A stretch of DNA of 64,000 bases from Streptomyces canus (lineage in GTDB: Bacteria > Actinomycetota > Actinomycetes > Streptomycetales > Streptomycetaceae), in contig NZ_CP107989.1 in the NCBI RefSeq assembly GCF_041435015.1, positions 5,828,001-5,892,000 of the forward strand. The letters run 5' to 3'. A program made the position numbers and the translations under genes. Below are positions 4,203 through 8,340 of this stretch, piece after piece. The notes under the pieces are model-generated. The model saw nothing but the letters and a program-made list of their open reading frames with translations. It made no database searches and was not told the origin of the DNA. The stretch's first letter is position 1. Each line of letters begins with the position of its first letter.

Positions 4203-4676
4203 CTAGCGCCCGTCGTGGCCCGAGCCCCGCTGCGCGACCAGGGCGTCGCGGATCTCCTTGAGGACCTCCAGCTCGGTCACCTCGATGACCTCGTGCGTGC
4301 CCTCCTTCGCCTTCCGCCGGGCCTCCATCCGAGCCAGGTACTTCGACATCGGCAGGACCATCAGGAAGTAGACGACGGCCGCGGTGATCACGAAGCTGAG
4401 CGTGGCGCCGAGAACGGAACCCCACCTGATCGGGATGCCGCGCAGCACGGTGCCGTCCGCCGCGACCTTGCACGGGGCCTGGAGACACGAACTGTAACTG
4501 TCGAGGTTCTTGGTGCCGATCGCTCCGACCAGCGGGTTGATGATGCCCTTCACCACCGAGTTGACGATGTTGGTGAAGGCCGCGCCGATGACCACCGCGA
4601 CAGCCAGATCGACGACGTTCCCGCGCATCAGAAAGGCCTTGAAGCCCTCCAGGACGCTCGGCTTCTTCTCGCTCAC
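4203..4676 (-). CDS. mscL: Large-conductance mechanosensitive channel MscL
   Basis: 157-residue channel that opens under membrane tension and releases solutes on hypo-osmotic shock. The N-terminal helix and first membrane segment read LEGFKAFLMRGNVVDLAVAV and contain the family's hallmark gating sequence; the second segment lies near residues 80-105. The periplasmic loop is longer than in E. coli and holds two cysteines (SSCLQAPCKV), which could form a disulfide. GTG start at 4676 with GAGG seven bases upstream. The next gene upstream, on the same strand, is a SAF-domain protein 138 bases away. Confidence 0.97.
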   Translation of the reverse strand: MSEKKPSVLEGFKAFLMRGNVVDLAVAVVIGAAFTNIVNSVVKGIINPLVGAIGTKNLDSYSSCLQAPCKVAADGTVLRGIPIRWGSVLGATLSFVITAAVVYFLMVLPMSKYLARMEARRKAKEGTHEVIEVTELEVLKEIRDALVAQRGSGHDGR

Positions 4677-4814
4677 CTAGAGGCCTCTTCTCGCACGCAC
4701 AGGTTGTGGAACAAACAGCTCCGCAACCTACGTCAACGCGAGGTGACCCTGTCCAATGGGGTCGCTCGAAGGGGGCCCTTGACAGGAACTCCCGCAACGG
4801 ACGGACTGCACTGC

Positions 4815-5351
4815 TCAACACAGCGTCACCGCCAACCGTGCCGTCGCGCTCGCGCCCGCGAGGCGTGCCGCCGTCGACCGCGGCACCGAGAGCACGACCA
4901 GTGCCCCGCCCTCGGTCACACCGTCCAGCGGCTCCGGCACCTTCGCCACCCGCGCCCCCCGCGCGACCACCCGGGCATCCCCACCCAGCGCCGACTCCTC
5001 CGCGGCGATGACGTCGACCCGATCCCCGGGGCGCAGCAGCCGGACCGTCGCACCGTCGGCGATCCGCACCGGCGCCGACACCGTCTCCACGGCACGGTGC
5101 CGGCGTACCGGCTCGGTTACCGGATGACCCCGCGCCCCGTCGTCGCCCCCCGGGCCCGCCGCCACCAACGCGGCCGCGGTGACGGCGAGGCCGAGGGCCA
5201 GGGGCCGTCCGCGGTGCCGTACGAACCGTTGTAGTTGCCGGCGCCCGCCGCGCACCCGCACCGGCGCGAAATGCGGGACCTCGCAGGTCGGGGGAGCGTC
5301 GGTACCCAGCGGGAGGGGCACGAGGGGAGAGGGAGACGGAGCGAAGGACAT
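4815..5351 (-). CDS. SAF-domain (CpaB/RcpC-like) membrane-anchored protein
   Basis: About 178 residues. A basic stretch (VRGGRRQLQRFVRHRGR) precedes one hydrophobic segment (LALGLAVTAAALVAA), then a SAF-like domain with VETVSAPVRIADGATVRLLRPGDRVDVIAAEE, as found in the pilus-assembly protein CpaB/RcpC and flagellar FlgA. Those proteins act at the cell envelope in Tad pilus or flagellar assembly, but no pilus or flagellar gene lies nearby, so its role here is open. I chose the ATG at 5351; the frame is open to 5393 but the first 14 residues show no support. It lies between mscL and mtnP on the minus strand. Confidence 0.75.
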   Translation of the reverse strand: MSFAPSPSPLVPLPLGTDAPPTCEVPHFAPVRVRGGRRQLQRFVRHRGRPLALGLAVTAAALVAAGPGGDDGARGHPVTEPVRRHRAVETVSAPVRIADGATVRLLRPGDRVDVIAAEESALGGDARVVARGARVAKVPEPLDGVTEGGALVVLSVPRSTAARLAGASATARLAVTLC

Positions 5352-5487
5352 GAGGACCACCACCAGTGACGAGACATCGGCTTGCGCTGCCACGATGAGG
5401 CTTCGCGCCGGATCCCGCCGAGGCCGGTGGACTACCGGCCGGTTGTGGAAAACTCGCTCACCCGAACGAGAACTTCCGTCCCCGCCA

Positions 5488-5551
5488 GGGAAGTTCGGAC
5501 TCAGGGAAGTTCGGGCTCAGGGAAGTTCGGGCTCAGGGAAGTTCGAACCCA
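5488..5551. repeat. Four tandem 16-bp repeats spanning the mtnP stop codon
   Basis: Four head-to-tail copies of GGGAAGTTCGGGCTCA (units start at 5488, 5504, 5520 and 5536; the first has one change and the last diverges at its end). The third unit contains the TGA stop of mtnP on the minus strand and the fourth encodes its last residues, so the array runs from inside the gene into the downstream region. Confidence 0.85.
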
Positions 5552-6366
5552 GGATTCATGCCGCCCAGCGCGTTCACGCACAGGCAGTCCCGCTCCACGT
5601 TCGGAGGCAGCGCCGCCACCGCGTCGAACAGCACGCCCCGCAGCCGGTCCACGTTCGCCGCGAACACCCGCAGCACCTCGTCGTGCGAGACGCCCTCGCC
5701 GGTCTCGGCGCCCGCGTCGAGATCGGTGACCAGGGTCAACGACGTGTAGCAGAGCTCCAGTTCACGCGCGAGCGCCGCCTCGGGGTGGCCGGTCATGCCC
5801 ACCACCGACCAGCCCTGGGCCTGGTGCCACACCGACTCGGAGCGCGTCGAGAACCGCGGCCCCTCGATCACGACGAGCGTGCCGCCGTCCACCGCCTCCC
5901 AGTCACGCCCACGGGCCGCCTTCAGCGCGGCCGCCCGCCCGACGGGGCAGTACGGGTCGGCCAGCGACACGTGCACCACGTTCGGCACACCGCCGTCCGG
6001 CAGCGGCAGCCCGTCGAAGTACGTTCCCGCCCGGGACTTCGTACGGTCGACCAGCTGGTCCGGCACGAGCAGCGTGCCCGGGCCGTACTCGGGGCGCAGC
6101 CCGCCCACGGCGCACGGGCCGAGGACCTGCCGTGCCCCCACCGACCTGAGGGCCCACAGATTGGCCCGGTAGTTGATCCGGTGCGGCGGCAGATGGTGGC
6201 CGCGCCCGTGCCGGGGCAGGAAGGCGACCCGTCGGCCGGCGACCTCGCCGAGGAAGAGGGAGTCGCTGGGCGGACCGTAGGGGGTGTCCACCTGGACCTC
6301 GGTCACGTCGTCGAGGAACGAGTAGAAGCCGGAGCCGCCGATTACGCCGATCTCTGCGTTCACCAT
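5533..6366 (-). CDS. mtnP: S-methyl-5'-thioadenosine phosphorylase
   Basis: 277-residue phosphorylase of the MTAP/PNP family. It splits 5'-methylthioadenosine (from polyamine and other AdoMet-using reactions) with phosphate into adenine and 5-methylthioribose-1-phosphate, the first salvage step. Visible marks: phosphate site IGGSGFYSF at the N-terminus, LPRHGRGHHLPPHRINYRAN, and the purine site VIEGPRFSTRSES followed by GMTGHPEAALARELE. The start at 6366 (MVNAEIG) is preferred over 6375 because a minus-strand TACTGT box sits seven bases upstream, suggesting a leaderless mRNA. The last codons and the stop are formed by a 16-bp tandem repeat. Confidence 0.94.
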   Translation of the reverse strand: MVNAEIGVIGGSGFYSFLDDVTEVQVDTPYGPPSDSLFLGEVAGRRVAFLPRHGRGHHLPPHRINYRANLWALRSVGARQVLGPCAVGGLRPEYGPGTLLVPDQLVDRTKSRAGTYFDGLPLPDGGVPNVVHVSLADPYCPVGRAAALKAARGRDWEAVDGGTLVVIEGPRFSTRSESVWHQAQGWSVVGMTGHPEAALARELELCYTSLTLVTDLDAGAETGEGVSHDEVLRVFAANVDRLRGVLFDAVAALPPNVERDCLCVNALGGMNPGFELP

Positions 6367-6373
6367 GACCAGC

Positions 6374-6379
6374 ACAGTA
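6374..6379 (-). promoter_or_regulatory. Putative -10 box of mtnP (leaderless)
   Basis: Minus-strand TACTGT ends seven bases before the ATG at 6366. Matches TANNNT with the spacing of a leaderless transcript. Confidence 0.45.
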
Positions 6380-6424
6380 TCCGGCCCCGGAAACCCGCGG
6401 CGGCCGGGCCCGGGAAACGCCGAA

Positions 6425-6452
6425 GACCCCGCCGTCGTACGACGGCAGGGTC
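6425..6452 (-). terminator. Terminator hairpin after the fmdB-like gene
   Basis: Inverted repeat GACCC.GCCGTCGT / ACGACGGC.GGGTC with one internal mismatch, 13 bases beyond the stop codon of the fmdB-like gene and ahead of the mtnP promoter. GC-rich hairpins without a U-run are usual for actinomycete terminators. Confidence 0.7.
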
Positions 6453-6465
6453 CCGGAAGTGAGAC

Positions 6466-6795
6466 CTACGCGGCGGAGCTGCTGCTGGACGAGGTGCCCG
6501 AGCTCGACGACTTCGAGTCCGAGGAGGACGAGGAAGAAGACGAGGACGACTCGGACGACGACGAGGTGGACGTCGACGGCTTCGAGGACGACGACGCCGG
6601 GGAGCTGCTCGACGAGGAGCCGCGGCTGTCGTTGCGGTAGAAGCCGGAGCCCTTGAAGACGATGCCGACCGCGGAGAACACCTTCTTGAGGCGACCCTGG
6701 CAGTTGGGGCACTCGGTCAGAGCGTCGTCGGTGAACTTCTGCACCGCCTCGAGGCCCTCGCCGCACTCGGTGCACTGGTACTGATAGGTGGGCAC
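6466..6795 (-). CDS. FmdB-family zinc-ribbon protein with poly-serine tail
   Basis: 109 residues. The first ~50 form the FmdB-type zinc ribbon: MPTYQYQCTECG, then TECPNCQGRLKKVFSAVGIVFKGSGFY, with four cysteines in two CxxC pairs. The remaining ~50 residues are almost only Ser with some Ala, Lys, Thr, Asp and Glu, a low-complexity tail. The family name comes from a putative regulator of formamidase/acetamidase, but the activity is unproven. GTG start at 6795 with AGGAGG eight bases upstream. A CIRCE-like operator lies between this ribosome site and the promoter region, so heat-shock control by HrcA is predicted. The acidic open frame on the opposite strand is a mirror of the Ser codons. Confidence 0.9.
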   Translation of the reverse strand: MPTYQYQCTECGEGLEAVQKFTDDALTECPNCQGRLKKVFSAVGIVFKGSGFYRNDSRGSSSSSSPASSSSKPSTSTSSSSESSSSSSSSSSDSKSSSSGTSSSSSSAA

Positions 6796-6805
6796 TGTCT
6801 TCCTC

Positions 6806-6832
6806 CTGGCACTCTCACTCAGTGAGTGCTAA
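6806..6832 (-). promoter_or_regulatory. CIRCE-like HrcA operator upstream of the fmdB-like gene
   Basis: Read on the gene's strand: TTAGCACTC, nine spacer bases, then GAGTGCCAG. The CIRCE consensus is TTAGCACTC-N9-GAGTGCTAA, so the left arm is perfect and the right arm matches 7 of 9 with the exact spacing. It begins 11 bases upstream of the GTG at 6795, where HrcA would block transcription or initiation. Confidence 0.75.
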
Positions 6833-6862
6833 CGATGGTCCATAGTGACGTATTCCCGGGAA

Positions 6863-8131
6863 TCAGTCCACTGCCATCGGCACTCGGTGACCGATGCCAC
6901 GTGCGACGGTCCGGCCGCGGGGCCGCGCCACGAGGTGTGAACGCAGCGCCAGCAGAGTCGCCAGGGCGAGCAGCGTGCCGCCCATCGGCACCAGGAACCC
7001 GGCGCCGTCCCGGAAGCGGTCCTCCAGCTGTCCGGCGATCGTGACGGCGGCCGCCTGGCCGAGCGCCACCGCGCCGGTCAGCCAGGTGAAGGCCTCGGTG
7101 CGGGCGCCTGCGGGGACCAGGCTCTCGACCAGGGTGTAGCCGGTGATCAGGGTGGGCGCGATGCACATGCCGACCAGGAGGCCGAGGCCCGCCAGGACGA
7201 GCACCGAGTGCGCGGCCCACAGGCCGGAGGCCGTCAGTGCGAGGGCGCCGTATCCGACGATCAAGCGCCGCTGGGGGGCCACCTTCCAGGCGATGGCGCC
7301 ACAGACCAGGCCCGAGAGCATGTTGCCCGCGGCGAAGACGCCGTACAGGACACCGTTCAGGCCGGGTTCGCCGATCGACTCGCTGAACGCGGCCAGCGAG
7401 ACCTGCATGCCGCCGAAGACGGCACCGATGCCCAGGAATGTCACGATCAGGACCCGCACCCCGGGGATGCGCAGTGCCGAGGCGTGCTCCACGCGTGCGT
7501 GGCCGTCGACGGCCGTGACCGACGGCTGCGTGCTCTTCTGTGCGGCGAACAGCAGGCCGCCGAGCAGTGTGAGGGACGCCTCCGTCAGCAGGCCCGCGGC
7601 CGGGTGCACGGCGGTGCACAGGGCGGTGGCGAGGAGCGGGCCGAAGACGAAGGTCAGCTCGTCCGTGACGGACTCGAAGGCCGCCGCCGTGGTCATCAGG
7701 GGCGAGCCCTGAAGCTTCACGCCCCAGCGGGCGCGCACCATGGGCCCGATCTGCGGCACCGAGGCACCGGTGGGCACGGCGGCCGCGAACAACGCCCACA
7801 GGGGCGCGTGCGCCAGGGCGAGGGCCGTCAGGGACAGGCCCGCAACGGTGTGCACCAGCACGCCGGGGATCAGCACGGCGCGCTGGCCCCAGCGGTCAGC
7901 GAGACGGCCGCTGTAGGGCGCGAACAGCGCCATGGCGACACCGGTGACGGCCGCGACGGCGCCCGCCGCTCCGTACGAGCCGGTGGTGTGCTGCACGAGC
8001 AGCACGAGGGAAAGGGTGAGCATCGCGAACGGCTGGCGCGCCGCGAAGCCGGGGAGCAGGAACGTCCAGGCGCCGCGGGTACGCAGCAGCTGCCCGTATC
8101 CCGGGCGGGAGGAGGTGACCGTGGATGCCAC
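6863..8131 (-). CDS. MFS transporter
   Basis: 422-residue major facilitator with about 12 hydrophobic segments. The loop 2-3 signature appears as GRLADRWGQRAVL. The type is close to small-molecule or drug exporters of actinomycetes; substrate unknown. The frame is open to 8257, but the GTG at 8131 (VASTVTSSRPGYGQLL) has AGAAAGG eight bases upstream and precedes the first conserved residues, so I take it as the start. An inverted repeat CCCCTT-CCG-AAGGGG lies 35 bases upstream. Its 3' end abuts the promoter of the fmdB-like gene, same strand. Confidence 0.88.
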   Translation of the reverse strand: MASTVTSSRPGYGQLLRTRGAWTFLLPGFAARQPFAMLTLSLVLLVQHTTGSYGAAGAVAAVTGVAMALFAPYSGRLADRWGQRAVLIPGVLVHTVAGLSLTALALAHAPLWALFAAAVPTGASVPQIGPMVRARWGVKLQGSPLMTTAAAFESVTDELTFVFGPLLATALCTAVHPAAGLLTEASLTLLGGLLFAAQKSTQPSVTAVDGHARVEHASALRIPGVRVLIVTFLGIGAVFGGMQVSLAAFSESIGEPGLNGVLYGVFAAGNMLSGLVCGAIAWKVAPQRRLIVGYGALALTASGLWAAHSVLVLAGLGLLVGMCIAPTLITGYTLVESLVPAGARTEAFTWLTGAVALGQAAAVTIAGQLEDRFRDGAGFLVPMGGTLLALATLLALRSHLVARPRGRTVARGIGHRVPMAVD

Positions 8132-8165
8132 GGCCCGTGCCTTTCTGCCGCCTGGTAGCGCGGCT

Positions 8166-8180
8166 CCCCTTCCGAAGGGG
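8166..8180. repeat. Short inverted repeat upstream of the MFS gene
   Basis: CCCCTTCCGAAGGGG is a perfect dyad 35 bases ahead of the MFS start. It could be an operator or a leader hairpin; sequence alone does not decide. A second small dyad, CTCTGC-N5-GCAGAG, lies at 8271-8287 after the antiporter stop. Confidence 0.4.
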
Positions 8181-8340
8181 CGGCGCCGAGAGCTGTCCTC
8201 TTGCGCGGACTGCGGTAGATGCCGAATCCGACTGCTCAGGGACGTCTCGGCCGCCATACGGTCGCGCCAGCTCTGCGTCAGGCAGAGTTGGTTCGATCAG
8301 GGGTGCGACCTCATCGTACAGGGGAGTGCGTAACACGCTC

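Follow-up and report, generated by a model that had tools for sequence, protein, structure and literature searches.

We consider it probable that the CIRCE element upstream of a serine-rich zinc-ribbon gene in Streptomyces canus is the HrcA operator of a Streptomyces ruc orthologue, and that this gene, which would encode a redox-regulated holdase, is under two-signal control by heat and by sigma-R. The window, meaning the whole stretch of 64,000 nucleotides that was analysed, contained the following features around this element:

6466..6795, minus strand: predicted ruc orthologue, an FmdB-family zinc ribbon of 109 aa with a Ser-rich tail (profile matches and cysteine positions)
6801..6807, minus strand: Shine-Dalgarno-like AGGAGGA, overlapping the final two CIRCE bases
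6806..6832, minus strand: CIRCE, predicted HrcA operator, TTAGCACTC-N9-GAGTGCCAG (match to the consensus and conservation)
6831..6833, minus strand: sigma-R-type -10 box GTT, 18 bases after GGAAT
6842..6847, minus strand: possible HrdB-like -10 box CACTAT, 17 bases after TGGACT (by eye)
6852..6857, minus strand: sigma-R-type -35 box GGGAAT (published consensus; conserved)
6865..6870, minus strand: possible HrdB-like -35 box TGGACT, overlapping the end of the upstream MFS gene (by eye)

On the gene (minus) strand, positions 6832–6806 read TTAGCACTC-ACTGAGTGA-GAGTGCCAG. The original prediction had called this element a CIRCE with an exact 9-base spacer, 16 of 18 consensus bases and a position 11–37 bases before the gene start, and the whole description was borne out. 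Both mismatches to TTAGCACTC-N9-GAGTGCTAA fell in the right arm, and the GTG start codon was located at 6795–6793. The last two bases of the right arm, AG (6807–6806), were also the first bases of the Shine-Dalgarno-like sequence (6807–6801). No other match with up to 3 mismatches was found in the window, and none of 100 dinucleotide shuffles contained one. Judged by its match and its conservation, the site is very probably an HrcA operator. An inverted repeat in this position could also function chiefly at the RNA level, whether as a hairpin in the leader or as a thermometer at the ribosome site, since its arms are able to pair in the leader and the right arm overlaps the Shine-Dalgarno-like sequence. 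However, folding was no better than that of shuffled sequences (z of 0.45 and 0.74), and the HrcA consensus with its 9-base spacer was kept in families having the site further from the start. A role as an RNA hairpin was rejected on the folding result, and we regard an RNA-level function as very improbable. A terminator of the upstream gene was also rejected, as the T-run was absent and none was called in 6300–6950. Just past the gene, a perfect palindrome, GCCGTCGTACGACGGC, was present at 6431–6446; it had no T-run and was not called as a terminator.

When the whole genome (10.68 Mb) was scanned, as the original prediction had suggested, six CIRCE sites were identified at up to 3 mismatches (backwards control 0), falling in four places; there was no match to the exact consensus. 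Two sites preceded a Cpn10 gene (groES) followed by a Cpn60 gene (groEL), two preceded a second Cpn60 gene (second groEL), and one stood about 345 bases upstream of the point where the HrcA domain match begins; a DnaJ-domain gene comes after this hrcA. The sixth was the site at 6806–6832. The gene had been linked beforehand to the groES/groEL heat-shock set, and the common CIRCE operator bears this link out. HrcA itself was encoded in the same genome (PF01628, 201.5 bits, cut-off 22.2). The paired copies of the chaperonin loci were located at C1:4191580-4191653 (L001/L005) and C1:5605437-5605499 (L002/L003); the FmdB-family gene and hrcA had a single copy each. The list of HrcA/CIRCE genes given for M. 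tuberculosis in PMC8557902, comprising groEL2, groES-groEL1, rv0991c-rv0990c and hrcA-dnaJ2, matches the four CIRCE places of this genome. For Streptomyces, the HrcA targets named in passages of PMC2687793 and PMC9739823 are groES-groEL1 and groEL2.

The operator was strongly conserved, partly through shared ancestry within the genus. The core GCACTC-N9-GAGTGC followed by a gene start at 5–35 bases was found in 291 of 295 same-genus genomes, with a backwards control of 0 among the matches listed; the four misses were G001 (79% complete), G050 (82%), G032 and G201. A chance resemblance to CIRCE without function was rejected and has next to no probability, given the shuffles, the empty backwards control of the genome and the conservation in genus and class, which already refutes it. 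In a draw from the phylum, 19 of 396 genomes carried the core pattern, 12 from the same genus and 7 from outside, under one strict pattern, which does not pick up different spacings, alternative starts or variant arms. Among the named loci, which were the best 80 of 424 and biased to near relatives, CIRCE with up to 4 mismatches was present in 77, namely 60/60 from Streptomycetaceae and 17/20 from elsewhere (missing in L074, L075 and L083). All 18 arm bases were identical in the 60 Streptomycetaceae loci. In a draw from the class, the protein was matched in 139 of 148 genomes. For 110 of these 139 orthologues, CIRCE was sought with up to 4 mismatches within 250 bases, and was present before 91, compared with 0 of 2200 shuffled regions; up to 5 mismatches gave 7 of 2200. 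The dyad, whose conservation in orthologues had been proposed as the test of the operator, was therefore strongly kept in Streptomyces, with exceptions in the class.

Those exceptions were the remaining 19 of the 110 orthologues, which had no CIRCE although HrcA was matched in all 19 genomes (partially in G744), so the link between CIRCE and the gene is not universal. The idea that absence of CIRCE tracks loss of HrcA was rejected for the same reason. By family, CIRCE was lacking in f5 (2/3), f7 (3/6), f8 (4/4), f77 (2/2), f97 (3/3), f100, f103 and f105 (1/2 each), and f102 and f106 (1/1 each). The orthologues concerned included L225-L228 (f8), L209-L211 (f97), L176-L177 (f77) and, from f7, L147, L153 and L243. 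Elsewhere in these genomes, among the matches listed, forward CIRCE matches outnumbered those of the backwards control in 17 of the 19, by a margin of one in G705 and G772, and did not outnumber them in G681 (1 vs 2) and G719 (4 vs 4). At such loci the gene appears to stand outside the HrcA set, and its membership of the HrcA regulon is, as far as predicted operators indicate, common in the class and variable by lineage. In many families outside Streptomyces, the left arm had TTRGCAGTC in place of TTRGCACTC (L067, L081, L145, L156, L191 and others), which we read as a lineage variant of CIRCE.

The 109-aa product matched PF09723 over residues 1–40 (56 bits, E 4.1e-15) and TIGR02605, the FmdB-family zinc ribbon, over residues 1–51 (73.6 bits, cut-off 31.3), and as a query it gave one match in its own genome. 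Cysteines at positions 8, 11, 29 and 32, and only these, were present in 80/80 named loci. Serine made up a median of 0.57 of the tail after residue 56 (range 0.17–0.72, 80 loci), a measure of composition only. The earlier description of an FmdB-like protein with a Ser tail holds. In M. tuberculosis, Rv0991c (Ruc) is an oxidation-activated chaperone that is repressed by HrcA and induced by SigH from overlapping operator and promoter sites; cysteines 8, 11, 29 and 32 are the residues that were mutated in it, and the family is linked to chaperone genes (PMC7448276). PMC8223512 and PMC8557902 also bear on Rv0991c/Ruc as a redox-regulated chaperone and HrcA target, and SigH-dependent transcription of Rv0991c, listed as a serine-rich protein, was reported in PMC4803200. 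Counting against our explanation, an M. tuberculosis mutant in ruc showed no strong defect in virulence, and survival in the oxidative conditions tested did not require Ruc (PMC7448276).

The original prediction had described the protein as not a chaperone and as an unexpected member of the heat-shock set. This premise fails because the FmdB/TIGR02605 protein shares cysteines 8, 11, 29 and 32 with Ruc, and its M. tuberculosis homologue has been demonstrated to be a redox-regulated chaperone and is already known as a target of HrcA. The role in protein quality with a disordered tail that had been suggested alongside fits what was found. By its homology to Rv0991c and its predicted regulation, we assign the gene at 6466..6795 as the putative Streptomyces ruc. 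The operator might be real and the protein nevertheless a zinc-ribbon regulator or some other factor rather than a redox chaperone; its Pfam and NCBIfam names give no function, and no Streptomyces member of the family is known to have been tested biochemically. We consider this quite unlikely, since the cysteine numbering and the Ser-rich tail are as in Ruc and the predicted regulators are the same. The linkage of the family to chaperone genes (PMC7448276) also argues for the chaperone.

The neighbours of the gene (window 6863–8257 and 4203–6375) were MFS-type in 57, MTAP-like in 59 and MscL-like in 54 of the 80 named loci, and outside Streptomycetaceae in 0/20, 3/20 and 3/20, respectively. 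These counts were taken from 3 kb flanks, some of which were ended by contig ends, and the MTAP and MscL genes were named by eye.

A sigma-R-type promoter overlapping CIRCE, absent from the original prediction, was found upstream of the gene. Its sequence, GGGAAT-N18-GTT, agrees with the sigma-R consensus GGAAT-N18-19-GTT of S. coelicolor (PMC2375139, PMC9205884; related forms in PMC3489674), and its GTT (6833–6831) has positions 6831–6832 in common with CIRCE. GGAAT-N18-GTT occurred at 85 places in the genome, compared with 12 in the backwards control; one place was about 300 bases before sigR, and the SigR and RsrA homologues adjoined each other. The box together with the CIRCE core (up to 1 mismatch) was present in 115 of 121 same-genus genomes, the others being G001, G022, G032, G039, G050 and G094. 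The exact N18 box was located at the CIRCE edge in 55/60 Streptomycetaceae named loci and in 1/20 others. Across 58 distinct sequences from Streptomycetaceae, conservation of the GGAAT and GTT columns was 90–100%, compared with 45–78% for the six columns upstream. Across the class, 20 of the 91 orthologues with CIRCE had a box at the edge (ending -6 to +3 from the CIRCE start), compared with 0.33 expected from the density elsewhere in the regions, the box and this range having been chosen after the class loci were inspected. These belonged to families f1 (11/11), f3 (6/9), f90 (2/4) and f89 (1/9). The pattern suggests use of GGGAAT-N18-GTT by sigma-R.

In the other 71 of the 91, the CIRCE edge lacked a sigma-R-type box, which counts against our explanation and favours one in which HrcA control is real, only the HrdB-like promoter works, GGAAT-N18-GTT is unused and the gene responds to heat without responding to thiol oxidation. 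The TGGACT-N17-CACTAT columns were also conserved among Streptomycetaceae sequences. However, under a strict sigma-70 scan neither TGGACT-N17-CACTAT nor any other sequence was called as a promoter, and the conservation of TGGAC may be coding because TGGAC ends the conserved MFS gene: among the loci with GTGGACTGA, it ended a frame of more than 250 aa in 53 of 55, and 53 matched the MFS protein of the window there. The higher conservation of the GGAAT and GTT columns and the persistence of box plus CIRCE core in the genus also stand against a promoter of the HrdB type only, as does the SigH-driven expression of the M. tuberculosis homologue (PMC7448276, PMC4803200). We therefore hold that reading to be unlikely, and prefer dual control by HrcA and sigma-R.

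For Streptomyces, we infer HrcA binding, sigma-R use, two-signal behaviour and chaperone activity from the operator and how well it is conserved, the set of CIRCE sites in four places, the conserved sigma-R-type box, the HrcA, SigR and RsrA homologues, the protein family and the cysteines. In unstressed cells, HrcA on CIRCE would cover the -10 and start region and hold the gene low, in the simplest reading by steric block of the promoter. Heat stress would relieve HrcA. Thiol oxidation would inactivate the zinc anti-sigma factor RsrA and free sigma-R, which would then read the overlapping GGGAAT-N18-GTT promoter; the weak HrdB-like promoter may supply basal transcription. By homology, oxidation of its four cysteines would itself activate the product, turning it into a holdase that passes its clients to DnaK/DnaJ/GrpE. 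Repression by HrcA and induction by SigH were both demonstrated in M. tuberculosis (PMC7448276).

An HrcA-controlled redox chaperone is a known arrangement in M. tuberculosis, and the Streptomyces case is a well-supported new example of it. An earlier report of CIRCE before the Streptomyces gene was not found in listings of open-licence PMC papers, nor in passages of PMC7448276, PMC3489674, PMC2375139, PMC9205884, PMC4803200, PMC8557902, PMC2687793, PMC8223512, PMC9739823 and PMC2631018. The finding adds a probable redox-activated chaperone to the small Streptomyces CIRCE set, suggests that a wiring known from a single pathogen occurs widely in actinomycetes, harmless laboratory strains included, and offers a likely function for a Ser-rich zinc-ribbon gene that databases name by family only. 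The sigma-R-type box was present or absent by lineage, with its end at 0, +2 or -4 from where CIRCE starts; such variation suggests that its pairing with CIRCE was re-made or selectively kept repeatedly. It is a tentative proposal, with a little under an even chance of being right, that in several actinomycete families the -10 box of the thiol-stress sigma factor at ruc overlaps or adjoins the HrcA operator as a heat-and-oxidation gate, and that selection re-made or kept this pairing more than once. If true, the gate would be matched to a chaperone that oxidation itself switches on.

Compared with the Streptomyces HrcA/CIRCE regulon in PMC2687793, the present case is alike in its operator and in HrcA, both being within the same genome; the FmdB-family gene is absent from the HrcA targets named in passages of PMC2687793 and PMC9739823. 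It resembles S. coelicolor sigma-R promoters in the GGAAT-N18-GTT box and spacing, but differs in that the -10 box overlaps bases of the HrcA operator. Hsp33 is alike through the homology to Ruc, with four zinc-binding cysteines and an oxidation-activated holdase function feeding Hsp70 (PMC7448276), whereas its sequence is unrelated and the FmdB-family protein is not a member of the Hsp33 family. In M. tuberculosis, rv0991c-rv0990c is described as an operon (PMC8557902), while an MTAP-like gene follows here. The closest likeness is to M. tuberculosis Ruc, with its FmdB-type zinc ribbon, cysteines 8, 11, 29 and 32 and disordered Ser-rich tail, and to the ruc promoter, where the HrcA operator likewise overlaps a SigH-type promoter (PMC7448276).
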